From Pontiellaceae bacterium B12219 (GTDB lineage: Bacteria; Verrucomicrobiota; Kiritimatiellia; Kiritimatiellales; Pontiellaceae): a stretch of DNA of 55,964 nucleotides. The notes under the pieces are model-generated. The model was not told the DNA's origin and did not search any database. It saw only the letters and a list, made by a program, of their open reading frames with translations. Position numbers and translations under genes: made by a program. Below are positions 7,319 through 55,964 of the stretch, piece by piece. The stretch lies in assembly GCA_029432795.1 (NCBI GenBank), contig JARNMJ010000027.1, forward strand, positions 1-55,964. The letters are read 5' to 3'. The stretch's first letter is position 1. Every line of letters begins with the position of its first letter.

Positions 7319-7465
7319 ATGGGAATCTACGACAGAGACTATATGCGCAAACCCTCCGAGGAACCTCGGCTGCAGAAACCGCGCGCCAAAATTGAAAAAG
7401 CCGACAATAAACCCAGCCTGATCAAACGCCTTAAATTCTGGATCTGGAATTTAAAAAACAAATAA
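7319..7465 (+). CDS. Small basic hypothetical protein (48 aa)
   Basis: ATG at 7319, TAA at 7463-7465. The protein begins MGIYDRDYMRKP, carries a charged Lys/Pro-rich middle, and ends with a short aromatic amphipathic segment (IKRLKFWIWNLKNK). The MGIYDRDY opening resembles the N-terminus of rhomboid-type and other small proteins in PVC bacteria, from memory. No function can be assigned. Coding is supported by the clean frame and the sharp N-terminal motif, but the ribosome site is weak. Confidence 0.45.
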   Translation: MGIYDRDYMRKPSEEPRLQKPRAKIEKADNKPSLIKRLKFWIWNLKNK

Positions 7466-7553
7466 CAAAGCATCTATCTCCCCTAATCAGAAGGGGTAAT
7501 GAAATGCAAAATTTCCCGCCCGATTTTCATCAAAAAAAGTTCAAGAACAGGCC

Positions 7554-7582
7554 TTGACGCAACCCCGTCATCCCGCTACTTT
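7554..7582 (+). promoter_or_regulatory. Sigma-70-like promoter of tRNA-Gly
   Basis: TTGACG (7554-7559), a 17-base spacer, TACTTT (7577-7582). The mature tRNA starts 34 bases after the -10. Confidence 0.6.
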
Positions 7583-7615
7583 ATGCGCTCGTTTGTACGG
7601 GAAACCAAACAAACA

Positions 7616-7689
7616 GCGGGCGTAGTTCAATGGTAGAACCCCAGCCTTCCAAGCTGGTTACGACAGTTCGAATCTGTTCGCCCGCTCCA
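7616..7689 (+). tRNA. tRNA-Gly (anticodon UCC), CCA encoded
   Basis: The acceptor arms GCGGGCG (7616-7622) and CGCCCGC (7679-7685) pair fully. The D arm includes AGTTCAATGGTAGAA. The anticodon stem is CCAGC/GCTGG with loop CTTCCAA, giving anticodon TCC (UCC). The T arm has the GTTCGAATC core. Discriminator T is followed by encoded CCA at 7687-7689. Confidence 0.95.
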
Positions 7690-7694
7690 TTTTT

Positions 7695-7730
7695 AAAGGG
7701 CCTTTTCTTCACGAAAAGGCCCTTTTTTTT
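7695..7730 (+). terminator. Strong intrinsic terminator after tRNA-Gly
   Basis: AAAGGGCCTTTTC (7695-7707) pairs perfectly with GAAAAGGCCCTTT (7713-7725) around a 5-base loop, running into eight Ts. Confidence 0.92.
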
Positions 7731-7768
7731 CAAATACGGGGGCGAAGGCGGTTTTTGTTTAACTGTAT

Positions 7769-8368
7769 GGTTCTCCCCGAAAGGGAGAGCCCACGATGAC
7801 TCTCAATCTGTAATTCTCGAAATTCTTAAATCCTTAGGCACGCCTTTGGATCATTTCCATCTTGGTATGGACCCCCTCCGTAATCCCATTGATTTTGGTA
7901 AACCGCCGCCATACCAGCGTTCATTTTGATCGGGGCGCAGTTTATCCGCGTAGCAACGCATAAACGAGAGCAGGCCGCGATTGCGCCGTCCTTCTGGATT
8001 CAGGCGTTTCCTCCCGGTCAGGAAGTGATGCAGCACGGTTCGGATCACATAAAATATGAAATCGATACGATTCGTGCATTCGGGAAGTATTTTCGCACGA
8101 TGGTGCGGTAGGAAGAGAAGTGCTCGTCAATACCAGTTATTCCGGGCACATCCGGCCAGTGAACACTCTTTCTTTACGATCAAGATGTCATGAAACCAAC
8201 GCTCTACCGCCGCCATGCCGATCCGGCAATTGCGGCGTAGTCGGGCCTGCGAGATCCCGTCACGATGATTCAGGCAAACTTCCCTTCGGGAATGTTCCGT
8301 ACTGCGTTTGCAGGGCAGCAGTCGGAGATCGCCCCCGTATTTGATGAAGAGTCGGTTTACACCGATAC
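7769..8368 (-). pseudogene. Decayed ISL3-family transposase
   Basis: Reading the minus strand in shifting frames gives ordered ISL3 transposase pieces. A zinc/HTH-region remnant (GISQARLRRNCRIGMAAVE then RWFHD) is near 8210-8290, and GITGIDEHF is near 8120-8140. RKYFPNARIV comes next, then the -RTVLHHF-...RNRGLLSFMR stretch near 7960-8040. Near 7800-7900 is TKINGITEGVHTKMEMIQRR followed by GFKNFENYRLRV. At least two frameshifts, an internal deletion after GIDEHF and a stop inside the RRAxGF motif make it non-functional. A hairpin at 7769-7791 (GGTTCTCCC/GGGAGAGCC) may be part of one IS end; the other end is not clear. Confidence 0.8.
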
Positions 8369-43643: not shown

Positions 43644-44264
43644 TCAGGGCAGTTGTAATGAGGCTTCCTGCTTATATTGGGTTAACTTATTCCGCAAAGT
43701 ACGCACACTGATTCCCAGCCTTTCGGCCATCACACTGCGGCTGCCGCGGGTTTCGTGCAAAACCCGCATTATGGTTTGGCGCTCAAGGTCCTGCAGATTG
43801 GTTATCGCTTCCGACTCCGTTGAAATCTCCGATGCTGCGACCGTCTGTGGCCCCCTATCGGCCGGAACCACCTTTTTTTGAAGCAACTCAACCTGAGTAC
43901 GCAGCCTGAGCAACTCCCGGGTCCGTGAAATGATGACTGAAACCTGCTCGGGTGAAAAAGGCTTCAGCAGATAGTCATACACGCCCCCGCTGCTGACCAG
44001 CTTGATCGCCTTATCCACATTCCGAAATGAAGTCATGACCACATAGACCGTATCCGTTTCTCTGTGAAACAGTCCGTCAGCGGCCTGAAAAATATCCAGA
44101 TCAGCAAATACAAGATCGAACTTCTGGCTTGCCTGCAGGCGAGACAGTTCTTTTCCGGAAGATGCTTCTATCGCAAAAACACCTTCCTGTTTAAGACGAT
44201 CAACCGCGTAGCCACGCATCAAAAAATCGTCATCCACCACAAGTGCTGTTTCCATCATATCCAT
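43644..44264 (-). CDS. Response regulator with Fis-type DNA-binding domain
   Basis: A 206-residue protein: receiver (residues 1-125, D55 in LVFADLDIF, KPF near 105) joined by a linker to a C-terminal Fis HTH (MRVLHETRGSRSVMAERLGI, VRTLRNKL). It has the ends of an NtrC protein without the AAA+ module, like the ActR/PrrA group. It can therefore bind DNA but not directly open sigma-54 promoters. Last gene of the fliW-to-43644 unit; a short hairpin overlaps its stop codon. Confidence 0.82.
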   Translation of the reverse strand: MDMMETALVVDDDFLMRGYAVDRLKQEGVFAIEASSGKELSRLQASQKFDLVFADLDIFQAADGLFHRETDTVYVVMTSFRNVDKAIKLVSSGGVYDYLLKPFSPEQVSVIISRTRELLRLRTQVELLQKKVVPADRGPQTVAASEISTESEAITNLQDLERQTIMRVLHETRGSRSVMAERLGISVRTLRNKLTQYKQEASLQLP

Positions 44265-44279
44265 CTCATTTCTTCCTGG

Positions 44280-44627
44280 TTAACAAACGCCGTAGGCTTC
44301 CATCCGTCGCGATGCCGCCTGAGGAATCGGCTTCTCCCGTGAGCTGGAGAACAGGGCCGGCCGGGCCACGTGCTCCAACATCGAACGAACCGAAGCCATA
44401 ACCGCTTTCGCCCGTTGCTGTTGTTCTGTATTTTCCAACAGACTACAGGCATTTGGCGGAAGCCTGCGGATTTGCTCCAGCAGTGCAAAAGAAAGTTTAT
44501 CCATCTGCCGGGCTTCGGTCAGGGTTGCCATGCGCCCCTGCTGTTTGGCCCGTTCATGATCACGGTTCAGTTGTTCACAGATAGTCTGAATTTGATTTAT
44601 GCAGCTGCTGATTTCATCTTCAGTCAT
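44280..44627 (-). CDS. Hypothetical helical protein in the fliW unit
   Basis: A 115-residue soluble protein, helical in the first 75 residues (DEISSCINQIQTICEQLNRD, ARQMDKLSFALLEQIRRLPP), with a Pro/Ser/Arg-rich tail. No family recognised. Size and fold class resemble FlgN-type export chaperones, but nothing specific supports that. Overlaps the TPR gene stop by four bases. Confidence 0.55.
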   Translation of the reverse strand: MTEDEISSCINQIQTICEQLNRDHERAKQQGRMATLTEARQMDKLSFALLEQIRRLPPNACSLLENTEQQQRAKAVMASVRSMLEHVARPALFSSSREKPIPQAASRRMEAYGVC

Positions 44628-46861
44628 TTCAATACCTTTTTCTGATGTTTTTTCACTGTTGCGGCCAAACGTTCCATCTTGTCAATCACCTGCGCGAGTT
44701 CTGTAAGCGAAGCATCCGCAATTTCGTCCTTCTCACGCAGCGCACGGCTAAGCCCTTCCAGCGACCCGGCCTGAAAGCGGTCTTCATAAAGCCGGAGCAC
44801 ATAACTCTGAATAGGCAGCCATTCGGCGTAATCTGACTGGTATGCGAGATCAATCAGACGGAGCATCGCCCGCTCATCGTCAGCCTCATACAAATAATCA
44901 AACGTCTCATTGAAATATGCCGCCAAAGCCTCGCGCCGTTCGCCGTCAGGCAAATTGAGAAACAAAGAAAGGTTGTCCTCCATAACAGCGGGATCCCGAA
45001 ACTTTTCATCCCCCTGCAAGTTCAAGCGTCCCAATGTATAGCGCACCTGATCCGGAGCGGAAAGCATCTGAACATAGGCCAGATCGTAGCGCCGCGCAGC
45101 TTCCCGGTTTTGTCCGAAACGTTTGGCGAGCTCCGCCCAGCCCAATGCCGCTTCCGACTTAACCAACGGAGACGTTGTCCGGTGGCATAACTCGCGAAAC
45201 AGATGATCCGCCGCTGCCCAATCTCCCTGCTTCTTCAAACACCGGGCTTTTCCGAGCATCGCCTGCTCACTGATATTTTCATTGAATGCCGCATTGCCAT
45301 CATTGCCTTGGAAAAAATTGAGCAATCCGATCCGGTTGTAGTAGGAAACCGCCAGATCATTCAGTTTCATTTCCTCAATATAACGTGCCATACGCAATTC
45401 CACAGAACCCACGCGAGGATCTTCGGGAATATTCTGAATGGCGGCCGAACCGACAACCAACTGTTCAAGTACGGGGCGATCCAACCAATATTTCGCTTCA
45501 AACAAAGAAAATAAAGAATCCTGATAAGCCCTGGAACTTTCGGGGAGCCGACCGATAAACCGGAGAATCCAGTTTTCGACCGCCTCATAATTTCCTTCGC
45601 TCATATTCAGATTTATCAACTCAGAAAATGCCATAGCAAACGCATCGTTCTCATCTGATTTCTGAAGCTGATTCATATAATTAACCGCACCGTCATGATC
45701 GCCCAGACGCTCTTCAAGCACGGCGGCACGAGCCATAAGTTTCCCGAACTCCCGGCCTGCGGGATCACCGAAACTGAAGCAGCCCTGCAACAGTCCCAAT
45801 GCATCTTCATACAGTTCATGCTCTTCCAACAGCTCGACAACCTGAAGAATTTCCTCCTGCGAATGCGCATTAAAATCGAATCGTTGAATCAGCGATTCCG
45901 CCAGTTCGGCTGCGTAGGCCACCTCCCCCTGAACCCGCGAAATCCGGCTCAGCAACATAAGAGCTTCGGTTAAGTTTTCCGTCGGCTCCCTTTCAAGGAA
46001 GTTCGTCAGATACTTCTGAGCTTCCTCATAGTTTTCAACCGACACCATTGCATTGGCCAAACGCAGCAGCGCCTCTTCCTGCTCTTGTTTTTCCCCGGAG
46101 TCGATAATCCGCTCCAGCTTCGTTTGAATTTCATGAAATACCCGCATCCTGTAAGCGGTCAGTCCTTCCCCGCCCTCTGCCAGCGCATAGGCTTCAAGCC
46201 AGCTGTCATCGGCCAGCAGTTTTTCGCGGGAACGCAATTTTACATCCGCCAGAAGTTCAGCCCATTCCGCCGACTGGAGCGGCATCGCTTCCGCAGTGGC
46301 CAATGCTTTAGTTAATTCGCGCCAACCTCGATTTGAATTCATCAGAAATTCAAATTTACGGCGCCATAATGTGATAAGGTATTCCGGTTCTTCAGCCGTT
46401 ATAATCATCGATTCCAGATATTCCAAAAAGTGCGGTTCGTCGCCCATCTCTTCCAGAACATCCAGCAGCTCCAGTCCGACTTCCATCTGTAAAACGAACT
46501 CCTGATCGCTCTCATCGAATGCCGCCTGAAGATACGAAACTGCCGCACCGGGATGAGAACCGCCGCCCCGAAGATAATCTTCAAATAACAGCTCCCCCAT
46601 TTGATGACCGGCCACGGCACGCTCATGCGGCGTCTTTGCCCGATCAAGTGCCAGCCGGACAAATTCGCGGGCCACACCAAACCGCCGCTGTTCTTTATAG
46701 AGAGCCGCGTTGGCCAGCATTTCATCAAACGTTGAAGACGACGGCTCTTCCAGCTCTGGAATTTCGACTGTAGCCGGCATTCGCGAACTTATATAAAAAA
46801 CAATGCCTTCCATTACGATGGCACTCAATATCAGGCCTAAAATGATAACTGTTTTACGCAT
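44624..46861 (-). CDS. Membrane-anchored TPR-repeat protein
   Basis: A 745-residue protein with one N-terminal TM anchor (KTVIILGLILSAIVMEGIVF) followed by about 700 residues of helical TPR-like repeats (ANAALYKEQRRFGVAREFVR, ALLRLANAMVSVENYEEAQK, YMNQLQKSDENDAFAMAFSE). The bulk probably lies in the periplasm as a protein-protein scaffold. ATG 46861 overlaps the stop of the receiver gene by eight bases. No known flagellar counterpart. Its place in a flagellin operon suggests a lineage-specific motor or motility scaffold, which is inference. Confidence 0.75.
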   Translation of the reverse strand: MRKTVIILGLILSAIVMEGIVFYISSRMPATVEIPELEEPSSSTFDEMLANAALYKEQRRFGVAREFVRLALDRAKTPHERAVAGHQMGELLFEDYLRGGGSHPGAAVSYLQAAFDESDQEFVLQMEVGLELLDVLEEMGDEPHFLEYLESMIITAEEPEYLITLWRRKFEFLMNSNRGWRELTKALATAEAMPLQSAEWAELLADVKLRSREKLLADDSWLEAYALAEGGEGLTAYRMRVFHEIQTKLERIIDSGEKQEQEEALLRLANAMVSVENYEEAQKYLTNFLEREPTENLTEALMLLSRISRVQGEVAYAAELAESLIQRFDFNAHSQEEILQVVELLEEHELYEDALGLLQGCFSFGDPAGREFGKLMARAAVLEERLGDHDGAVNYMNQLQKSDENDAFAMAFSELINLNMSEGNYEAVENWILRFIGRLPESSRAYQDSLFSLFEAKYWLDRPVLEQLVVGSAAIQNIPEDPRVGSVELRMARYIEEMKLNDLAVSYYNRIGLLNFFQGNDGNAAFNENISEQAMLGKARCLKKQGDWAAADHLFRELCHRTTSPLVKSEAALGWAELAKRFGQNREAARRYDLAYVQMLSAPDQVRYTLGRLNLQGDEKFRDPAVMEDNLSLFLNLPDGERREALAAYFNETFDYLYEADDERAMLRLIDLAYQSDYAEWLPIQSYVLRLYEDRFQAGSLEGLSRALREKDEIADASLTELAQVIDKMERLAATVKKHQKKVLK

Positions 46862-47582
46862 GGGATTCCGTCGGGCTCCCCGGCTGTACCGTTTCCAAAA
46901 GAGCTGCACGTTCCAACGGAGTTGTCGGACGGCGCGAAAGTGCAGCCAACTCATCAACTCCGGCTACAAATTCAATATTCAAATCCAGCGAATCAAAATA
47001 GTTACGTAAATCCGGGTTTGCGCCCACCACAGCCAGTCCACGCCGCGGCCTGCGAAACGAATCGGGCATTGAAGAAGGTAATGATTCGGAAGACCACGCT
47101 GAAAAATCAACCGCCAGCCAATCCTGCTCTTCCCATTCAGGCCGGTTTTCCGACTCGGATGGATCGGCTTTAAAATACGCATAGCGCCCTACCCGAACCG
47201 TTTCCTTAACCGGTGAACAGCCTGCCTCTCGAGCCAGCGTTTTTGCAATCAATGCCACATCGGGAGGTTTCGGAAAAACCGCACAAATACCAAGGTCATT
47301 CACAGTTTCCTCTTCGAGATCCGCCGCTTCTCCGCTGAGCATTGCAATGGGCAAACTGAACTCTTCTTTGCGCAACAGGCGAACCACATCAATTCCATTT
47401 CCATCCGGCAAACGGTAGTCGAACAGCGCGGCATCGAACGTGGTGTTCCGCATCAGCTTGATGGCTTCAGCACAACAACCGGCCTCGCTCACCTGCGCAC
47501 CGGCCTGCTCCAGTTTTGAACAGATCAACAACCGGACCAGCGGTTCATCGTCCAATACCAGCACCTTGGCATTCAATTCCAT
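46854..47582 (-). CDS. Response regulator with unknown C-terminal domain
   Basis: A 242-residue protein using ATG 47582, chosen because AGGGATGAGG precedes it; ATG 47609 or 47618 in frame would overlap the LysM gene. The receiver covers residues 1-125 with D55 in ALFDYRLPDG. The C-terminal ~115 residues (KETVRVGRYAYFKADPSESE, RGLAVVGANPDLRNYFDSLD) match no family I know, though the RGLAVVGANPDLR part resembles a second, degenerate receiver start. Confidence 0.7.
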   Translation of the reverse strand: MELNAKVLVLDDEPLVRLLICSKLEQAGAQVSEAGCCAEAIKLMRNTTFDAALFDYRLPDGNGIDVVRLLRKEEFSLPIAMLSGEAADLEEETVNDLGICAVFPKPPDVALIAKTLAREAGCSPVKETVRVGRYAYFKADPSESENRPEWEEQDWLAVDFSAWSSESLPSSMPDSFRRPRRGLAVVGANPDLRNYFDSLDLNIEFVAGVDELAALSRRPTTPLERAALLETVQPGSPTESHA

Positions 47583-47598
47583 GGCCTCATCCCTGTTG

Positions 47599-48297
47599 TT
47601 AAAACTCATACGATCCATTCCTTGGGAACCGCGGCACAACCAGAACTTCACCCGGAGATAAATTATCCGGATTCTTAACCTGACGATGGTTCGCCTGCCG
47701 CAGCCAGATCGCGCGCGACGGGTCTCCATATACCATGGGGTTGGCGGCAATGCTTTGAAGCGAATCGCCTTCCTTCACCTCGTAATACTCAAATTCCCCT
47801 AAAAGCAAACGCTCAATGGTCTCCCGCAACCCTTCCGATTTTTCCTTCCATTTTTCAGATTCCATTTCCAGCGATCGAATGATTTCCGCTTTGCCCGAGA
47901 GGGCTGTCTTTATGTCTTCATTCTCCTCTTTCAAGGCATCGTACTGCCGCTGAAGATGCTCATTCTCCGCCTGAATACGCTTTAGTTCCCGACTCAAGGA
48001 TTCCGATTGTTTTGCTTTTTCAAGCAAGTTGGACAGCATTCCGTATCCGGACTCCGGAGTAGGCGAAGGTTCTTTTTCATCCACAGGAAGAAGAGCCAGC
48101 ATATTGTCGAACAGCTCCTGAATTTCAAGATACTGCGCCTTGTAGCGCTCATATTCACTGGCTTTGCGTTCCAACGTCTGTAACCGAGTGGGCGCACCAA
48201 CAGGAACCTCGACCGGAGCCGCCGTCAGATTCCTGCCCGAGAGCAGTGCAACGGCATATACCATGAGCACCGTACATTTTCTGAGATCCGCTTTCAT
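47599..48297 (-). CDS. Secreted coiled-coil LysM protein
   Basis: A 232-residue protein. N-terminal signal peptide (CTVLMVYAVALLSGRNLTAA), a long coiled coil (residues ~38-165) and a C-terminal LysM motif (YYEVKEGDSLQSIAANPMVY, then NPDNLSPGEVLVVP) that binds peptidoglycan. It is probably periplasmic, anchoring something to the wall, possibly the neighbouring TPR protein or the stator. ATG 48297 has GGGATGAT upstream. Confidence 0.78.
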   Translation of the reverse strand: MKADLRKCTVLMVYAVALLSGRNLTAAPVEVPVGAPTRLQTLERKASEYERYKAQYLEIQELFDNMLALLPVDEKEPSPTPESGYGMLSNLLEKAKQSESLSRELKRIQAENEHLQRQYDALKEENEDIKTALSGKAEIIRSLEMESEKWKEKSEGLRETIERLLLGEFEYYEVKEGDSLQSIAANPMVYGDPSRAIWLRQANHRQVKNPDNLSPGEVLVVPRFPRNGSYEF

Positions 48298-48363
48298 ATC
48301 ATCCCTACCCAAACCGGTTCGAAACCGTGCCCCGGAATCTCTTCGCGAGGCACACATCATTTT

Positions 48364-49227
48364 TTAGCCAAATAACTGCATAACATTGCCTGGAAGCTGA
48401 TTGGCCTGCGCCAGCATGGCGGTACCGACCTGCTGAAGAATCTGATACTTCGTCATCTCAGATGTTTCCTTGGCAACATCCACATCGCGAATCCGACTTT
48501 CGGTGGCCATAATATTTTCTTCGTAACTCCGGAGCCCGGCCAGCGTCTGATTCATGCGATTCATCTCTGCACCCACATCCGCCCGTCTTTCACTCAGGAA
48601 ATCGATTCCCAACTGCAATTCTGTCACGGCAGTTTCTGCATCGGTTTGTGTCGAAATATTAATGGACCCCGCACTGTCAATCAATTGGCCCCACGTTGTT
48701 CCATTACCCAGATCGTCTGTGCTGGCGGTGGTCAAATCCAACGCAGCAGAAGTGAAGGTCTGGCCCCCATCGGCACCCACCTGTTGTGTAATACCGGCAC
48801 CGCCCTGAAAAAGAGCAACGCCATTAAATTTTCCGGCGGCATTGGCCCCGGTTGTAATGCGGGCAATTTCATCCTGCATCTGCGCAAACTCCTGCTGCAG
48901 CACGGTGCGGTCAATATCCGACTTCGTGCCATCGTTGGCCATCACGGCAAGCTCGCCCATGCGACCGAGCATATCGTGCATTTTCTGCATCCAGGAATCA
49001 GCCGTCTGCAGATAGTTCAACTTGTTTTCCACGTTGCTCGCGGCGGCAGATGTATTGCGCGACTGCGTGCGCAGCCGTTCGCTCATGGCAAGGCCGGAGG
49101 CATCATCACCGGCATTTTCTATGCGGTTGCCTGACGACAGCCTGGCCATCGAATTCTGAAGACCTTCAATATTGCTGTTATAATTTTTCCAGACGTTGAA
49201 CGCCGTTGTATTATTCGATATCTGCAT
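48364..49227 (-). CDS. fliC: Flagellin FliC, divergent copy
   Basis: A 287-residue flagellin with conserved N-terminal D0/D1 helices (LQNSMARLSSGNRIENAGDD, ASGLAMSERLRTQSRN) and C-terminal helices (YEENIMATESRIRDVDVAKE, ILQQVGTAMLAQANQLPGNV then MQLFG). The variable middle is short. It differs from the other two at both ends (NYNSNIEGLQ, PGNVMQLFG). It follows csrA by 26 bases with no promoter between, so it is read from the fliW sigma-54 element. The ribosome site GAACAAAGGATAG contains a GGA that CsrA could cover. Confidence 0.95.
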   Translation of the reverse strand: MQISNNTTAFNVWKNYNSNIEGLQNSMARLSSGNRIENAGDDASGLAMSERLRTQSRNTSAAASNVENKLNYLQTADSWMQKMHDMLGRMGELAVMANDGTKSDIDRTVLQQEFAQMQDEIARITTGANAAGKFNGVALFQGGAGITQQVGADGGQTFTSAALDLTTASTDDLGNGTTWGQLIDSAGSINISTQTDAETAVTELQLGIDFLSERRADVGAEMNRMNQTLAGLRSYEENIMATESRIRDVDVAKETSEMTKYQILQQVGTAMLAQANQLPGNVMQLFG

Positions 49228-49253
49228 GGTTCTATCCTTTGTTCATCTAGCAT

Positions 49254-49481
49254 CTATTGACCGAACATCCCGCAGAGGGCATCCAGAGACACATTCGATT
49301 GTTCAGCCGCTTCTTTATTGGCGGCCAGAATGGCTTCAAAAATTTCTTTTCGGTAGATGTTCATTTCAGCCGGAGCCGAAAAGCCCAAACTAACCTGATC
49401 ACCGCGCACGCTGAGCACTTTGACCTCAATATCCTCTCTCAGCATAACGCTTTCATTCGACTTCCTTGTCAGAATCAACAT
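49254..49481 (-). CDS. csrA: Carbon storage/flagellin translation regulator CsrA
   Basis: A 75-residue RNA-binding protein starting MLILTRKSNESVMLREDIEV and continuing VLSVRGDQVSLGFSAPAEMN, with IYRKEIFEAI. The Arg44-equivalent region GFSAPAE is intact. CsrA dimers block flagellin mRNA ribosome sites and are titrated by FliW. It lies between fliW and a flagellin, the Bacillus-type arrangement. Confidence 0.97.
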   Translation of the reverse strand: MLILTRKSNESVMLREDIEVKVLSVRGDQVSLGFSAPAEMNIYRKEIFEAILAANKEAAEQSNVSLDALCGMFGQ

Positions 49482-49508
49482 GTCGCCCTCCTTGGCTTCA
49501 ATTTCCGT

Positions 49509-50027
49509 CTAACGGCACTGCGTTGCAGCTAAATCATCTTCAGCAGACGTTTCCCGGGACTGCATCAACGCATCCCACACGCGAAAACGAACATCATGCT
49601 TTGTGCCTTCGCTGATGATCTGACGGCCCTGACAGTTCTTCATATTCAGGATCACCGGCCCCTGCAGATTTGCCGTAATCTCGCTGGGTTCATCGCGCAC
49701 GGTAACGAAAGAAAAGATAAATGCATCCTCGCCGCGCTGCAGATCCAGCGCCTGCAAATCCGATGGGCCCACCCGAACCTGATAGTCCGGACAAACGAGA
49801 AACGGGTCGAGGCAGACAAAGGAAACTTCCGGGGAAATTCCGATTGATTTCATAAAAAAGAACGGCTGCATATCCGTATTGCAATACAGCACAAACTGCT
49901 TGTAGTCCTCAAAGGCGGGGACTCCGTCCGGGAACGTGAAGATGTTGCCATCGCTCACCGGAATGCGCACAGTGCGGGTTTCGGTCTCCAACACCATCGG
50001 AACCGGTGTTTCATTGGTTTTATTCAT
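49509..50027 (-). CDS. fliW: Flagellar assembly factor FliW
   Basis: A 172-residue protein with IFTFPDGVPAFEDYKQFVLY and, later, SFVCLDPFLVCPDYQVRVGP and ANLQGPVILNMKNCQGRQII, all FliW hallmarks. FliW binds CsrA or flagellin in turn, coupling flagellin export to translation. ATG 50027 follows AAAGGG; a TTG at 50042 is in frame but less likely. The sigma-54 element lies inside the 3' end of asnB and predicts a leader of about 28 bases. Confidence 0.94.
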   Translation of the reverse strand: MNKTNETPVPMVLETETRTVRIPVSDGNIFTFPDGVPAFEDYKQFVLYCNTDMQPFFFMKSIGISPEVSFVCLDPFLVCPDYQVRVGPSDLQALDLQRGEDAFIFSFVTVRDEPSEITANLQGPVILNMKNCQGRQIISEGTKHDVRFRVWDALMQSRETSAEDDLAATQCR

Positions 50028-50043
50028 CAGTATCCCTTTCAAT

Positions 50044-52008
50044 TTAAGTAAGACAGGTTGAGTTTAGCAGTTCAGATGCCACAGGATCCGGAGCATCGCC
50101 CTCCTCCGGGTGCAGTCCGTTTTGTTCCCAAAGCGCCAGATTGGCGAGCGGCCAAAGCTGCATCGCGTAACCCGGATCCTCCGCACCGTCAATGAGCTCC
50201 ATCAGAACAGGCCGTTGCACCATTTCGTTTAGCAAGCGGGAAGACGAAAGCGTATCCGCCGCAAAATCGCGCAGCGATCCACCGAACCATTCGCGGAACG
50301 GCACGGGAAAGCTGACCTTGCGGCGATTCATAATTTCCGAAGGAACTTCATTCATAAACGCACGGCGCAACAACAGCTTACTCTCAACCAGATTCCGCTG
50401 ATCGATTTCAGCCACATTCATCACGCGTCCCTGCTGGCGGGCGGCTTCATCGCGCCAGGCCATCCGGTATTCACTCGGCAGACGGTAGAGATAGTCCGCA
50501 ATACGGTGATCAGTAAACGGCACACGCGCTTCCACCGAAGCCGACATGGTGCTTGAATCCACCCGGTTCAGCAGCCCTTCTAAATTTATGCGCGCATGCA
50601 GGTGCATGTGCTTATCCAGCGTCGAGCATCCTTCAAACCGATCAAACATACCCTGATAAAAGTCCCAAACCGCCGGAAAACGCGCGGACAGATCCGGCTG
50701 AAGCAAAACCTGCTGCGTCGCCGGCGCCATCCAGGAATTCAACAGGAAGTGATGCTCCACATGCCCCGGAAGGCAGTCCTGGCCGTAGAGCCGAAGCATT
50801 GCCCGTTCCACCGATCCCGGCGCATCGGACGGCACACGTTTCGCACGATCAAAATCATACGCCGAAAAATACGGCATCACATACCCGCCAAACACCTCGT
50901 CCGCCCCCTCGCCGCTCAGCGCAACGGTGTAGTCCTCCCGCAGCGCGCGGGCCAGATACCAAATCGGGATCTCGTTCGGCGTACTGAGCGGCAAGCCCTT
51001 CTCTTTCATCAGAAAAATCCAGGCGTCGACAAATCCGTCAGAACTGAGATGGATTTCCCGACATTGGATTTCGGCAAACTCCGCCGCCATTCGAACATAC
51101 GGCCATTCATTGCATCCGTGTTCACCGTAGCCGACATTATAGGCGCCATATGCACCCCGCTTCGCCGCGAGCGAAGCAATCACGGAGGAATCAATCCCGC
51201 CACTCAGAAAACCGCCGAGCGGAACATCGCTCACGAGCTGGCCGGCCACCGCATCTTCCACCAGCGATCGAACCGTTTCGACCGCTTCGCTCAACGGCGG
51301 AGCCTCTTTTTCAGATTCCGGAACAATCGGGAATTCCCAATAGCGTTGAAACGCGACCGACCGCTTTGCGCGGCGGGCCGTTAACTGAACCCCGGGTTCC
51401 AGGGTTTGGACATCCCGCAACAAAGTGCGCGACCCCATCGTCGTGCGGATTGAGCTGAAATAGTGCAATACGGCATCGAATTCAATCTCGGCCCCCACTC
51501 CGTCAAAGGCCCGCAGCGCCGCCACCGTTGAAGCAAATGCAATGCCTTCAGCGGTTCGGGCATAGTAGAGCGGCTTGGCTCCCATCCGATCGCGCGCCAG
51601 AAAAAGCAGTTCTTCCTGCGGATCATAAATGGCAAAGGCGAAAATACCGACAAACCGCTCCGTACACGCCCGCCCCCACTGAAGATAGGCACGCAACAGC
51701 ACTTCGGTATCGCATTGCGTTTCGAAAGCATGGCCCAGCCCGACCAGCTGCGTGCGCAGTTCCCTGAAATTATAGATCTCGCCGTTATAGGTGAGACAAA
51801 TCCCGGAAGCACGGTCTACGATGGGTTGCCAGCCGCCGGTCAGATCGATCACCGTCAGTCGACGATGAGCAAATCCCACTCCGTTCTGTTCATAAAACCC
51901 ATCGGCATCCGGACCCCGCAGCGCCATTCGTTCCGCCGCACATCGCAGCGGACGGGAAGGAACCGGCGCATCTGAATCCCAGCTGAAAAAACCGGCAATT
52001 CCACACAT
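50044..52008 (-). CDS. asnB: Glutamine-hydrolysing asparagine synthetase-like amidotransferase
   Basis: A 654-residue enzyme. The glutaminase domain starts at Cys2 (MCGIAGFF) with RGPDADGFY and YNGEIYNF. The synthetase domain has the PP-loop FLSGGIDSSVIASLAAKRG near residue 270 and later YTVALSGEGADEVFGGYVMP, both needed for beta-aspartyl-AMP chemistry. It may make Asn or amidate a sugar or peptide, as paralogs in surface-polysaccharide loci do. It has its own sigma-54 element and a 16-base leader (AAAGGAG at its 5' end), and it lies between fliD and fliW. That points to a flagellum-linked role such as filament modification, which is inference. Confidence 0.9.
   Translation of the reverse strand: MCGIAGFFSWDSDAPVPSRPLRCAAERMALRGPDADGFYEQNGVGFAHRRLTVIDLTGGWQPIVDRASGICLTYNGEIYNFRELRTQLVGLGHAFETQCDTEVLLRAYLQWGRACTERFVGIFAFAIYDPQEELLFLARDRMGAKPLYYARTAEGIAFASTVAALRAFDGVGAEIEFDAVLHYFSSIRTTMGSRTLLRDVQTLEPGVQLTARRAKRSVAFQRYWEFPIVPESEKEAPPLSEAVETVRSLVEDAVAGQLVSDVPLGGFLSGGIDSSVIASLAAKRGAYGAYNVGYGEHGCNEWPYVRMAAEFAEIQCREIHLSSDGFVDAWIFLMKEKGLPLSTPNEIPIWYLARALREDYTVALSGEGADEVFGGYVMPYFSAYDFDRAKRVPSDAPGSVERAMLRLYGQDCLPGHVEHHFLLNSWMAPATQQVLLQPDLSARFPAVWDFYQGMFDRFEGCSTLDKHMHLHARINLEGLLNRVDSSTMSASVEARVPFTDHRIADYLYRLPSEYRMAWRDEAARQQGRVMNVAEIDQRNLVESKLLLRRAFMNEVPSEIMNRRKVSFPVPFREWFGGSLRDFAADTLSSSRLLNEMVQRPVLMELIDGAEDPGYAMQLWPLANLALWEQNGLHPEEGDAPDPVASELLNSTCLT
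50066..50081 (-). promoter_or_regulatory. Sigma-54 element of the fliW operon, inside the asnB 3' end
   Basis: TGGCATCTGAACTGCT on the minus strand, GG-N10-GC exact, overlapping the last asnB codons. Predicted +1 near 50055, 28 bases before the fliW ATG. Confidence 0.8.
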
Positions 52009-52034
52009 TGGACATTTCTCCTTTGCCAGGGTGA

Positions 52035-52050
52035 AGCAAAGCAGATGCCA
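52035..52050 (-). promoter_or_regulatory. Sigma-54 element of asnB
   Basis: TGGCATCTGCTTTGCT on the minus strand, GG-N10-GC exact with a consensus TTGC -12. Predicted +1 is an A at 52024, 16 bases before the asnB ATG. Confidence 0.82.
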
Positions 52051-52064
52051 CAGGAAACCGCGGA

Positions 52065-52081
52065 CTTCCAGGGATTGGAAA
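52065..52081. repeat. TTTCC-type palindrome upstream of the asnB sigma-54 element
   Basis: Minus-strand TTTCCAATCCCTGGAAG, identical in 16 of 17 bases to the copy at 14849-14865 upstream of flgF. It lies about 15 bases upstream of the -24 box. Confidence 0.6.
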
Positions 52082-52094
52082 GCGGACTGATCGG

Positions 52095-53531
52095 TTAGCT
52101 GCCCGAATTAAACATCGAGTCGATGTAGCTCATCTGATATTCCATGTTTGCGAGCGCATCTTCCATGGCGGTAAACTGATCCCAAAGCGTTTGCTCATAG
52201 TCTTCCAGAGCCGCCTCCAATTCCGCCATTTCATCTGAATAATCGTCGTACTTTTCAGTCATCGACTCAATACGCTCGGCGATATCTCCCGTCAGCGATG
52301 CACTGATTTTATCAGCATAGCGATACATATCGGAAGCAACACCGTTCGTATACGCGACCGCCTCTTCGTCGTAAACGCCCTTAAACAGCTGCTCCATATT
52401 GGAGAACTCATATTCCAGCATGTCATCCAGCCGACTGCTGTCCACAATACTGAGCTGATTGGTTTCACCGGAGGTCCAAATACCGATATCCGACAAATTG
52501 TCCATGATGCCGGTCTCGCCATTATAAGAATACGCCGCATTGGTTTCGTCGAGCGCGGCGGATTTCGAGCCCGTCGCCATACGCCGCAGATCCAAACGAA
52601 TGGAATTCAAAAGGGAATCGCCATATAACTCGCCCTTCACAGCCAGCTCCGAACTCCCCCCCAACTCCACACTGCTGTAATCATCCACCACCGCGGCCAA
52701 TGCGTTGTAATTTTCCACAAACTCGGAAATGGCAAGTTTAACGGCATCGCGGTCGGCGTGGACGTCCAGCGTGGATGAGCCCACTCCTTTCAGATTGAGG
52801 GTCAACCCTTCAATGACATCTGTGAGCTTGTCATTTGATGCACGCACCACAGAAATTCCATTGACCGTAAACTCCGCATTTTCGCCGGCAACATTTTCAT
52901 TTTTAATCGCGGCCGAGGCATCCAGTATCCCTATATTTTGCAGAACCGTTCCGGTTGTATCCGAAAGTGCAATTGAATCGGCCCCGGTATTGGCACGGGT
53001 CAATACGAGGTGGTTGTTGACAATACTGGCCTGCACCCGCGTTTCATCCGGCATCGCAAGTGCGGCACTGTTGATTTTAGTGCGTAATGAGGTCAGCGTT
53101 TCCCCTGCCTCAATCGTGATCTGTTCCCCCTCGATTTCAAAAACATCGCCTGCTGCGGCATAGCCTCCGCTGATGAGATCATCCGAGGTATCGACGATAT
53201 CGGAAGAAATACTTTGTGCCTTGGCCAGATTAGAGACCACCAGCGAATACTGCTGTTCTGCCGAAGCCGTCGCGGCTGAAGCGGTCACCACGCTTTCCGC
53301 AGAGGATTCAGATGACATACTGCGCCACAGCTCAAATCCACGAAGCGTGTCCAGCGAGGAAGTCAACGAGGAAGCCAACGTATTCAACTGCGACCACGCA
53401 CCCATATCGTAATCGAGCTCTATTCGCTTATTATCCAATGTATCGATCGGAATCTGACGCGCCGCCATGAGTTGTTCAATCATGCCTGCGTAGTCCGTTC
53501 CCGATGATAATCCTCCAACATGTATTCCCAT
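52095..53531 (-). CDS. fliD: Flagellar filament cap protein FliD
   Basis: A 478-residue secreted cap protein. The N-terminus is GIHVGGLSSGTDYAGMIEQL, followed by ARQIPIDTLDNKRIELDYDM, the usual FliD_N pattern. The variable central domains contain the ALSDTTGTVLQNIGILDAS-like region. The C-terminal coiled segment (IESMTEKYDDYSDEMAELEA, LWDQFTAMEDALANMEYQMS) is FliD_C. GAGGATC precedes the ATG. It is upstream of asnB and reads from its own sigma-54 element. Confidence 0.94.
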   Translation of the reverse strand: MGIHVGGLSSGTDYAGMIEQLMAARQIPIDTLDNKRIELDYDMGAWSQLNTLASSLTSSLDTLRGFELWRSMSSESSAESVVTASAATASAEQQYSLVVSNLAKAQSISSDIVDTSDDLISGGYAAAGDVFEIEGEQITIEAGETLTSLRTKINSAALAMPDETRVQASIVNNHLVLTRANTGADSIALSDTTGTVLQNIGILDASAAIKNENVAGENAEFTVNGISVVRASNDKLTDVIEGLTLNLKGVGSSTLDVHADRDAVKLAISEFVENYNALAAVVDDYSSVELGGSSELAVKGELYGDSLLNSIRLDLRRMATGSKSAALDETNAAYSYNGETGIMDNLSDIGIWTSGETNQLSIVDSSRLDDMLEYEFSNMEQLFKGVYDEEAVAYTNGVASDMYRYADKISASLTGDIAERIESMTEKYDDYSDEMAELEAALEDYEQTLWDQFTAMEDALANMEYQMSYIDSMFNSGS

Positions 53532-53574
53532 GGCCGATCCTCAAACGTTCACATTCTAACCCATCCCTATCTAA

Positions 53575-53590
53575 AGCAGGATGAATGCCG
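53575..53590 (-). promoter_or_regulatory. Sigma-54 element of fliD
   Basis: CGGCATTCATCCTGCT on the minus strand, GG-N10-GC exact; first base C instead of T. Predicted +1 near 53564, 33 bases before the fliD ATG. Confidence 0.75.
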
Positions 53591-53621
53591 CAGCCCCCGG
53601 ACAACCGATGCCCCGGGGCCC

Positions 53622-53656
53622 GAAGACGGGATCTTATGACAACTGATCCCGTCTTC
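53622..53656. terminator. Stem-loop after the second flagellin gene
   Basis: A 12-bp perfect stem, GAAGACGGGATC (53622-53633) with GATCCCGTCTTC (53645-53656), and an 11-base loop. On the minus strand it ends the flagellin transcript but lacks a U-run there (the T-run is on the plus side). It may act as an mRNA-stabilising end or a weak terminator. Confidence 0.65.
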
Positions 53657-53672
53657 TTTTGGCAGGGAATGC

Positions 53673-54554
53673 TTAGCCCAGCAGCTGAAGCACGCCCTGC
53701 GGCAACTGATTCGCTTGCGCCAGCATTGCCGTTCCGACCTGCTGCAGGATGCTATACTTCGACATCTCCGCAGTTTCCTTGGCCACATCCACATCGCGGA
53801 TACGACTTTCGGTGGCACTGATGTTTTCTTCGTAGGAACGCAGCCCGTCCAGGGTCTGGTCCATACGCTTCATTTCAGCACCGATATCCGCACGCTTCGT
53901 GCTGATATAATCAATTCCTTCATTGATCACAGACACAGCCGCTCCGGCATCACCTTCTGTACCGGAAATTGCAATCAAACCGGAAGCCGCATCGGCCAGA
54001 CCACTGTTGATCAGGTCGCCCCAATTGCTGCCACCGGCAAGTGTATCTGCACTTCCCTGAGTCAGGTCGATCGCGGCACCGGTAAAGGTCTGTCCGCCAT
54101 CGGCACCCACCTGCTGCGAAACAGAAGAACCGTCAAACAGGGCCAATCCATTGAACTTTCCAGCCCCATCAGTCGTGTCAACAATCCGGGAGATTTCATC
54201 CTGCATCTGCTTGAATTCTTTCTGCAGAACATCTTTATCGGTTGTTGATTTCGTACCGTCGTTAGCCATCACGGCAAGCTCGCCCATACGACCGAGCATA
54301 TCGTGAATTTTCTGCATCCAGGAATCTGCGGTCTGCAAGTAGTTCAACTTGTTTTCCACGTTCCCCGCCGCAGCGGCCGTGTTGCGCGACTGCGTACGCA
54401 GCCGTTCGCTCATGGCCAGCCCAGACGGATCATCGCCTGCGTTATTGATGCGGCTGCCGGAAGACAGCTTGGACATTGAGTCGCGCAGGTTACTGACGTT
54501 GTTTGTATAGTTTTTCCATACATTAAACGCTGAGGTATTATTACTGATCTGCAT
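53673..54554 (-). CDS. fliC: Flagellin FliC, second copy
   Basis: A 293-residue flagellin with N-terminal NVSNLRDSMSKLSSGSRINN then AGDDPSGLAMSERLRTQ, and C-terminal ATESRIRDVDVAKETAEMSK then QLPQGVLQLLG. It is very similar to the copy at 54792, differing mainly in the short central part (residues ~130-215). It is preceded by its own sigma-28-like promoter and a leader with a 7-bp hairpin showing AAGGAC in the loop. SD is AAGGAGG. Confidence 0.96.
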   Translation of the reverse strand: MQISNNTSAFNVWKNYTNNVSNLRDSMSKLSSGSRINNAGDDPSGLAMSERLRTQSRNTAAAAGNVENKLNYLQTADSWMQKIHDMLGRMGELAVMANDGTKSTTDKDVLQKEFKQMQDEISRIVDTTDGAGKFNGLALFDGSSVSQQVGADGGQTFTGAAIDLTQGSADTLAGGSNWGDLINSGLADAASGLIAISGTEGDAGAAVSVINEGIDYISTKRADIGAEMKRMDQTLDGLRSYEENISATESRIRDVDVAKETAEMSKYSILQQVGTAMLAQANQLPQGVLQLLG

Positions 54555-54589
54555 GGTTTCCTCCTTGGTTATATGCAGTTTACTTCAAA

Positions 54590-54609
54590 GCAACACGTCC
54601 TTGTGTTGC
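54590..54609 (-). promoter_or_regulatory. CsrA-type RNA hairpin in the second flagellin leader
   Basis: Minus-strand GCAACAC-AAGGAC-GTGTTGC: a 7-bp perfect stem with GGA in a 6-base loop, matching the CsrA consensus ACARGGAYGU. The SD AAGGAGG (near 54560-54566) supplies a second GGA for dimer bridging. Confidence 0.7.
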
Positions 54610-54614
54610 CTGCC

Positions 54615-54641
54615 ATTCGTCCTGGACCATCCAAAACTTTA
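54615..54641 (-). promoter_or_regulatory. Candidate sigma-28 promoter of the second flagellin
   Basis: Minus-strand TAAAGTTT (54641-54634), a perfect -35, then N11 and GGACGAAT (54622-54615), a poor match to GCCGATAA. The predicted start falls at the first bases of the CsrA-type hairpin. Confidence 0.5.
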
Positions 54642-54695
54642 AACGGCGTTCGGTTAATCGACCCTCCGCGTCTTTCTCTTAAGTCCCCGCAATTA

Positions 54696-54718
54696 AAATC
54701 GGCAATTTTTGCCGATTT
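54696..54718. promoter_or_regulatory. Palindromic operator-like element upstream of the second flagellin
   Basis: Arms AAATCGGCAA and TTGCCGATTT with a TTT centre (23 bp, arms perfect). A near-copy occurs upstream of the third flagellin at 55819. It lies between the previous terminator and the promoter. Confidence 0.6.
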
Positions 54719-54736
54719 CCGAATAACCCCGGCCCC

Positions 54737-54767
54737 AAAAAAAAACGGGCCCCGAAAACGAAGCCCG
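54737..54767 (-). terminator. Intrinsic terminator of the third flagellin gene
   Basis: On the minus strand a 9-bp stem (CGGGCTTCG with CGGGGCCCG, two G-U pairs) and a TTTT loop, followed by nine Ts (complement of A at 54737-54745). Confidence 0.88.
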
Positions 54768-54771
54768 CCTT

Positions 54772-54786
54772 TTCCAACCATTGGAA
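54772..54786. repeat. Short dispersed palindrome between flagellin stop and terminator
   Basis: TTCCAACCATTGGAA, a perfect TTCCAA-N3-TTGGAA, five bases past the third flagellin stop codon. Confidence 0.6.
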
Positions 54787-54791
54787 GCAAC

Positions 54792-55682
54792 TTAGCCGAG
54801 AAGCTGAAGCACGCCCTGCGGAAGCTGGTTGGCCTGGGCCAACATGGCCGTTCCAACCTGCTGAAGGATATTGTATTTCGACATTTCAGCGGTTTCCTTG
54901 GCCACGTCCACATCGCGGATCCGGCTTTCAGTGGCACTGATGTTTTCTTCGTAGGAGCGCAGGCCGTCGAGGGTCTGATCCATACGCTTCATTTCCGCAC
55001 CGACGTCAGCACGTTTTCCACTGATAAAGTCAATTGCAGCATTCACTTCAGTTACGGCCGCTCCGGCATCGCCGGTTGCAGAAATATCGATTGATCCACC
55101 TGATGTGATCAATGCCCCCCAGGAGGTACCGGTTCCGATGTCTTCAGTGGACGCACCGGAAAGGTCCAGCGCCGCAGCGGAAGTGAAAACCTGCCCGCCA
55201 TCCGCTCCCACCTGCTGAGTAATCGGGGTTCCGCCCTGAAACAATGCAATTCCATTAAATTTGCCGGCGGCATCCGCATCGCCCCCTCCTGCCACATTGC
55301 TATCCCCGGCAATGCGTTCAATTTCCTGCTGCATCTGAGCAAATTCTTTCTGCAGGATAGCCTTATCCGTATCCGACTTGGTGTCATCGTTAGCCATCAC
55401 GGCCAACTCGCCCATACGGCCGAGCATATCGTGCATTTTCTGCATCCACGAATCCGCCGTCTGCAGATAGTTGAGCTTATTTTCCACGTTGCCCGCCGCA
55501 GCTGAAGTATTACGGGTCTGGGTGCGAAGCCGTTCGCTCATGGCGAGACCGGAAGGATCATCACCGGCGTTATTGATACGACTTCCTGATGATAGTTTAG
55601 ACATCGAGTCGCGCAGACTGCTGACGTTATTGGTGTAGTTTTTCCAAACATTGAATGCTGAAACATTGTTACTAACTTGCAT
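54792..55682 (-). CDS. fliC: Flagellin FliC, third copy
   Basis: A 296-residue flagellin starting MQVSNNVSAFNVWKNYTNNV, with DSMSKLSSGSRINNAGDDPS and the same C-terminal helices and QLPQGVLQLLG tail as its neighbour. The central region differs (a VAGGGDADAAGKFNG insertion). It has its own sigma-28-like promoter, a leader of about 90 bases with a CsrA-type hairpin, SD AAGGAGG and a strong terminator, so it is monocistronic. It may be the major filament protein, given the best promoter and terminator of the three. Confidence 0.96.
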   Translation of the reverse strand: MQVSNNVSAFNVWKNYTNNVSSLRDSMSKLSSGSRINNAGDDPSGLAMSERLRTQTRNTSAAAGNVENKLNYLQTADSWMQKMHDMLGRMGELAVMANDDTKSDTDKAILQKEFAQMQQEIERIAGDSNVAGGGDADAAGKFNGIALFQGGTPITQQVGADGGQVFTSAAALDLSGASTEDIGTGTSWGALITSGGSIDISATGDAGAAVTEVNAAIDFISGKRADVGAEMKRMDQTLDGLRSYEENISATESRIRDVDVAKETAEMSKYNILQQVGTAMLAQANQLPQGVLQLLG

Positions 55683-55718
55683 TGGGTGCCTCCTTGGCGA
55701 TTATTATACTCATGAGCT

Positions 55719-55732
55719 GCACATCCTTGTGC
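55719..55732 (-). promoter_or_regulatory. CsrA-type RNA hairpin in the third flagellin leader
   Basis: Minus-strand GCAC-AAGGAT-GTGC: a 4-bp stem presenting AAGGAU, matching ACARGGAUGU almost perfectly. A second GGA lies in the SD AAGGAGG about 35 bases downstream. Confidence 0.7.
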
Positions 55733-55779
55733 CACTCACCGCCTTCCGGACCTTCCGGAAATTCCTGCGGATATGAAGC

Positions 55780-55806
55780 TATTCGGCCAACCGATCCCTC
55801 AACTTA
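55780..55806 (-). promoter_or_regulatory. Sigma-28 promoter of the third flagellin
   Basis: Minus-strand TAAGTTGA (55806-55799), N11, GCCGAATA (55787-55780), close to the FliA consensus TAAAGTTT-N11-GCCGATAA. Confidence 0.7.
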
Positions 55807-55818
55807 AATGATATGTTT

Positions 55819-55841
55819 AAATCGGTAATTTTTGCCGATTG
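55819..55841. promoter_or_regulatory. Palindromic operator-like element upstream of the third flagellin
   Basis: Arms AAATCGGTAA and TTGCCGATTG with a TTT centre. Two positions differ from the element at 54696. It ends 13 bases upstream of the sigma-28 -35 box. Confidence 0.6.
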
Positions 55842-55869
55842 CTGAAAATCCCGAAACAACATATAGATA

Positions 55870-55936
55870 CCCCGGGCATGCCCGGGGTTCTATGGCTCCG
55901 CTACGCTCCGCCTGTTTACAGCTCCATTCGGAGCTG
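55870..55936. repeat. Hairpin-rich window end
   Basis: A perfect palindrome CCCCGGGCATGCCCGGGG (55870-55887) and a 7-bp hairpin CAGCTCC-ATTC-GGAGCTG (55919-55936). No gene is visible between 55842 and the window end. These may be the terminator region of a gene beyond the edge. Confidence 0.45.
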
Positions 55937-55964
55937 ATCTGAATCCTTCCGTCCTTGATATTCG

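Follow-up and report, generated by a model that had tools for sequence, protein, structure and literature searches.

The closest systems described so far are the Hag-FliW-CsrA switch of Bacillus subtilis and the control of flaA in Campylobacter jejuni. In the former, fliW and csrA form a pair, CsrA bears a C-terminal extension and N55, and the hag leader has one upstream CsrA site and another over the SD (PMC7652899, PMC6529632). In the latter, the sigma-28 major flagellin is the CsrA target, and its leader, with compensatory stem changes, combines an ANGGA stem-loop with an ANGGA at the ribosome site that is itself in a stem-loop; the two GGA are 21 nt apart, the optimum being 18 nt, and flaB, which has another promoter (sigma-54), binds CsrA more weakly than flaA (PMC4894983). 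By saturating mutagenesis, V51 and N55 of C. jejuni CsrA were described as FliW contacts (PMC7829508). The RNA bound by CsrA has been described by a SELEX consensus, RUACARGGAUGU, and by a hexaloop form, CANGGANG (PMC7652899; PMC4894983).

The locus studied here shares with B. subtilis the fliW-csrA pair and a CsrA with the C-terminal extension and N55, and the predicted arrangement of its CsrA sites, one upstream and one over the SD, is that of hag. With flaA it shares the ANGGA stem-loop, the ANGGA at the ribosome site and the compensatory changes in the leader stem, and here too sigma-28 flagellins would be the targets. It differs from B. subtilis in belonging to a distant phylum and in that several flagellin paralogues would be under common control while the one adjacent to csrA would be without it. 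It differs from flaA in the SD site, around which no hairpin was found here, and in the spacing, which is mostly 23-42 nt. Literature searches on CsrA with Kiritimatiellota, or on CsrA-FliW with Verrucomicrobia, gave no relevant paper; with sequence evidence at the RNA level, the present data would extend the FliW-CsrA checkpoint on flagellin to a phylum, Verrucomicrobiota including Kiritimatiellota, where the literature searched reports none. Judged by all the sequence features examined, it is a known type of control of flagellum assembly in a new place, with an escaped flagellin as a modest twist.

The fliW-csrA locus and its flagellin leaders

The window, that is, the whole stretch of 55,964 nucleotides that was analysed, is contig C193 of a MAG of Pontiellaceae (Kiritimatiellota; 4.75 Mb, 273 contigs), and relatives of its flagellins are found in Pontiellaceae and other Kiritimatiellae. 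Its minus strand carries, in this order, flagellin 3, flagellin 2, fliD, an asparagine synthase, fliW, csrA and flagellin 1 (Table 1). The initial annotation had placed fliW, csrA and a flagellin side by side, which is the case for flagellin 1; a stretch of 4.5-5 kb that holds asparagine synthase, fliD and flagellin 2 separates fliW-csrA from the nearer hairpin leader. It had also counted three flagellins, two of them with a hairpin; this is true of the window, but the genome has four, three with a hairpin, the fourth (hairpin-bearing) being at the end of contig C229. In a relative (G027), a single contig carries four flagellins followed by fliW-csrA-flagellin, which makes it probable that C229 and C193 adjoin each other in the genome. 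The asparagine synthase gene (glutamine-dependent, window 50044-52008, between fliD and fliW) is 16 nt ahead of fliW; it is possibly related to flagellin modification, or a chance neighbour.

Table 1. Position of the genes, hairpins, SD sites and predicted promoters in the window.
Feature	Position	Strand	Remarks
flagellin 1	48364..49227	-	starts 26 nt past csrA; without hairpin, without sigma-28 box, AAAGGA at SD
csrA	49254..49481	-	75 aa, single copy; R44, I51, N55; C-terminal extension; PF02599, 78.6 bits
fliW (CsrA antagonist FliW)	49509..50027	-	PF02623, E 9e-32; matches solved FliW structures (PDB 2aj7, 5dmb_A)
flagellin 2	53673..54554	-	293 aa; Pfam Flagellin_N + Flagellin_C
SD of flagellin 2	54560..54566	-	AAGGAGG; second ANGGA site, candidate CsrA site over the SD
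CsrA-type hairpin, flagellin 2 leader	54590..54609	-	GCAACAC-AAGGAC-GTGTTGC; loop C-AAGGAC-G fits CANGGANG hexaloops; kept in relatives with altered stems
sigma-28-like promoter, flagellin 2	54655..54681	-	TAAG-N15-GTCGATTA; pattern match, 0 mismatches
flagellin 3	54792..55682	-	296 aa
SD of flagellin 3	55689..55695	-	AAGGAGG; second ANGGA site
CsrA-type hairpin, flagellin 3 leader	55719..55732	-	GCAC-AAGGAT-GTGC; perfect ACARGGAUGU SELEX core
sigma-28-like promoter, flagellin 3	55780..55806	-	TAAG-N15-GCCGAATA; pattern match

The hairpins proposed for the leaders of flagellins 2 and 3 were found exactly as the initial annotation wrote them, that of flagellin 2 having a stem of 9 bp when the outer pairs are counted. 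Its assignment of the loop to the CsrA consensus also stands: both loops match the CANGGANG form, and the flagellin 3 GCACAAGGAUGUGC includes the SELEX consensus core ACARGGAUGU. The same is true of the second GGA that it had seen in each SD. The distance from the GGA of the loop to that of the SD is 33-36 nt in flagellin 2 and 30 nt in flagellin 3, longer than the optimum (18 nt) and longer than in flaA (21 nt), which counts against a CsrA switch. The folding of the whole leaders, another point against, was not unusually stable (z of -1.2 and -1.6), and an Rfam scan of window 44000-55964 (12 kb) gave no relevant match, also with respect to sponge sRNAs of the CsrB/CsrC type; the evidence for RNA structure resides in the conserved local hairpin and not in whole-leader folding.

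In the genomes scanned, the hairpin motif is specific to flagellin leaders. Among the 63 gene calls of the window, it is present ahead of flagellins 2 and 3, and the other 61 are without it. The pattern CAAGGAYG-N8..38-AAGGAGG has exactly 3 matches in the 4.75 Mb genome, each ahead of a flagellin (the third on C229), and a second pattern, ACARGGAYGT-N6..36-AGGAG, gave the same three. In the relatives G001, G024, G027 and G034 the first pattern was found 3, 3, 4 and 2 times, in flagellin leaders only, so that in five genomes, this one included, the combination of hairpin loop and SD is confined to these leaders.

With regard to the promoters, TAAG-N15-GYCGAWTA begins 127 nt (flagellin 2) and 124 nt (flagellin 3) upstream of the start codons, and a slightly looser box is present at -124 to -128 in 13/18 hairpin leaders of the six nearest flagellated genomes. 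Since the boxes begin there and the hairpins sit within about -57 to -35, the predicted transcript starts precede the hairpins by about 30-40 nt, which would place these inside the transcript. The initial annotation had regarded starts downstream of the hairpins as evidence against its reading; judging from the sigma-28-like boxes, the predicted starts lie upstream instead. A genome-wide scan with the sigma-28 pattern gave 34 matches vs 33 in the control and is too loose for defining a regulon, and general scans for sigma-70 promoters and terminators did no better than chance. It was also possible to see, in four genomes (six leaders), a conserved dyad, ATCGGCAA-N3-TTgCCGAT (window 54698-54716 and 55821-55839), 157-164 nt upstream of flagellin start codons, with the sigma-28 box beginning roughly 35 nt farther on; the dyad is operator-like and could be a putative factor-binding site.

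Conservation, covariation and co-occurrence

Leaders were gathered from nine class-level genomes, two further contigs of the phylum and 80 flagellin regions of a 388-genome phylum sample, and a hairpin was defined as an ANGGA hexaloop closed by a stem of 4 bp or more. In the class set, 27/44 leaders have it, against 0.24 expected. Across the phylum, 44 csrA-bearing genomes provide 121 distinct flagellin leaders, 77 of which have it (2.9 expected by shuffling), compared with 2/119 control stretches farther upstream of the same genes, bearing in mind that the leader sequences are related and that these counts, like those of covariation, are therefore not independent events. About one-third of the flagellin leaders in CsrA genomes are without a simple hairpin by this criterion, many of them having bulged or 8-nt-loop forms. 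The A and the GGA of the loop are built into the search, and both were recovered independently by a loop-agnostic count, in which ANGGAN represented 45 of the 86 hexaloops on stems of at least 5 bp in leaders and 0/41 in the upstream control stretches; the second base of the loop takes A, C, G or T, as in the CsrA ANGGA motif. A GGA is found in the SD stretch of 118/121 leaders of the CsrA-positive set, and ANGGA within that of 73/77 hairpin leaders.

The presence of different stems around the same loop had been taken initially as covariation. Two paralogues alone make this weak, but the evidence becomes strong because 57 distinct hairpins covary. For 26 class hairpins the covariation score was 0.704 vs 0.213 in shuffled alignments and for the 57 phylum hairpins 0.956 vs 0.205, with 0/500 shuffles reaching the observed value in either set, and sliding the alignment by 1-3 columns lowered the score to 0.22 or less. 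The alignment with relatives that had been suggested as a check shows the loop kept (A-N-GGA constant) and two-sided, compensatory changes at every stem position. The innermost three pairs are biased, since they were used to select the hairpins; the fourth pair from the loop, which was unselected, is paired in 53/57 hairpins with five pair types. The result is a large covarying set of natural candidate CsrA hairpins whose stem, loop and spacing can be compared.

The proteins agree with this picture. The best PDB match of CsrA is 5dmb_D, the FliW-bound CsrA of Geobacillus, aligned over residues 2-69 with the C-terminal extension included. The RNA-binding residue R44 is found in 18/18 distinct CsrAs read, and so are the FliW-binding I/V51 and N55, the CsrA of this locus having I51 and N55. 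In the 388-genome sample, FliW was detected in 40, CsrA in 42 and flagellin in 46 genomes; all 40 genomes with FliW also have CsrA and flagellin, and in 40/40 of them, by coordinates, fliW is immediately upstream of csrA. Leader anatomy, conservation, covariation, co-occurrence and the conserved CsrA contact residues are direct observations. Several genomes (G034, G158, G185, G283, G360, G374, G402, G404, and G406) have two or three FliW copies and one CsrA, and G388 (84% complete) is the sole genome of the sample with CsrA yet no detected flagellin or FliW.

Proposed switch and alternative explanations

Taking these results together with the described systems, it is very probable that the sigma-28 flagellins of this genome are controlled by a partner switch of FliW, CsrA and flagellin like those of Bacillus and Campylobacter. 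The initial annotation had argued for such a switch, and conservation, CsrA residues and co-occurrence support it; by homology we infer CsrA binding, repression, antagonism by FliW and the binding of flagellin to FliW. The leaders of flagellins 2, 3 and 4 (the last on C229) would be two-site targets, each combining a hairpin of high affinity, with its ANGGA hexaloop, and another ANGGA within the SD. A CsrA dimer on the hairpin would reach the SD and block ribosomes; FliW, encoded immediately upstream of csrA, would bind the C-terminal helix of CsrA and take it off the mRNA, and cytoplasmic, unexported flagellin would in turn bind FliW. Sigma-28 flagellins would therefore be translated only during flagellin export. 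Pontiella agarivorans, a cultured relative, has a full flagellar gene set and no flagella were seen (PMC10880615), so the genes may seldom be expressed, which weighs against the model; as a speculation, the FliW-CsrA switch may hold flagellin off in such a culture.

It could be argued that the hairpin is a structural 5' element, a stabiliser of the mRNA or a ribosome standby site, and that CsrA plays no part, the AAGGA of the loop being a decoy SD or a standby SD. Highly abundant mRNAs can be stabilised by hairpins close to their 5' ends, and AAGGAY looks like an SD; nevertheless, a second family of the phylum combines an ACGGAC loop with an AAGGAAG SD, which shows that the loop sequence does not track that of the SD. 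Moreover, flagellated genomes without detected CsrA and FliW (G198, G276, G403, and G294) are without a convincing hairpin: it was found in 1/8 leaders (Fisher p 0.006, in a control that is not phylogenetically independent because these genomes carry a different flagellin type), and this single case is weak, with a 4-bp stem and two G-U pairs. We consider this explanation improbable. Even less credible is that the repeat acts as DNA, either as an operator, for which inverted repeats are typical, or as a sigma-54 promoter, given that TGGCAC in flagellin 3 (TGGCAC-N6-GTGC) resembles a -24 element. The GC lies one base too far away, the other leaders do not match such a promoter, and there is a sigma-28-like box upstream; in addition, variable arms around a constant loop are the reverse of what is expected from a DNA dyad bound by a protein. 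Both the sigma-54 and the operator readings were dropped on the basis of the spacing and of this pattern of arm and loop conservation.

A different objection accepts that CsrA binds the hairpins and concerns its partner or its effect: the relevant antagonist might not be FliW (it could be, e.g., small RNAs), or CsrA might stabilise the mRNA and not repress it, as it activates some mRNAs in other bacteria. The adjacency of fliW and csrA in 40/40 genomes, the conserved FliW-contact residues and the location of the second ANGGA in the SD make this, too, an unlikely option.

The csrA-linked flagellin

The leader of flagellin 1 has neither hairpin nor sigma-28 box, and the simple GGA near the SD, as initially annotated, is all that it carries (AAAGGA). 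By its position, flagellin 1 would be cotranscribed with csrA, and it is probably under weak CsrA control or none; flaB of C. jejuni offers a parallel, with the difference that the escaped flagellin here is csrA-linked and without a sigma-28 box. In the six nearest flagellated genomes, the looser sigma-28 box was found in 0/5 csrA-linked, hairpin-less leaders. Five Pontiella-type genomes have csrA-linked, hairpin-less flagellins that cluster together in the protein tree (support 87/78), next to a set of 15 flagellins with the hairpin in 15/15 (one on a 3-bp stem), and the csrA-linked flagellins of G034, G058, G071, and G082 do carry hairpins (in G034 with a stem of 3 bp). The simplest explanation is therefore a single loss of both hairpin and sigma-28 box from the csrA-linked flagellin within the Pontiella-type group; particular flagellin paralogues thus appear to have lost the control. 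A second hairpin-less group has four members, in G058 and G071.

It can be proposed tentatively, though we regard it as rather doubtful, that sensor and structural flagellins divide the work between them: the csrA-linked flagellin, cotranscribed with fliW-csrA, would sense export on behalf of the sigma-28 flagellins. Free of CsrA control and of a sigma-28 box, flagellin 1 would be made early and in proportion to FliW; because unexported flagellin 1 would hold FliW, CsrA would keep the sigma-28 flagellins off, and export of flagellin 1 after completion of the hook would open the switch. If this were true, CsrA in this phylum would be a dedicated flagellin regulator and not a global one.

Two further observations concern the leaders of relatives. 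In CsrA-less flagellated genomes (G198, G276, and G403; L252-L258) the SD is often AGAAAGGTA, without GGA, and GGA is present in 3/8 SD stretches. In G024, the flagellin 2 orthologue (L053, around 7340-8216) is broken by a stop or a change of frame, and its CsrA-type hairpin is kept.
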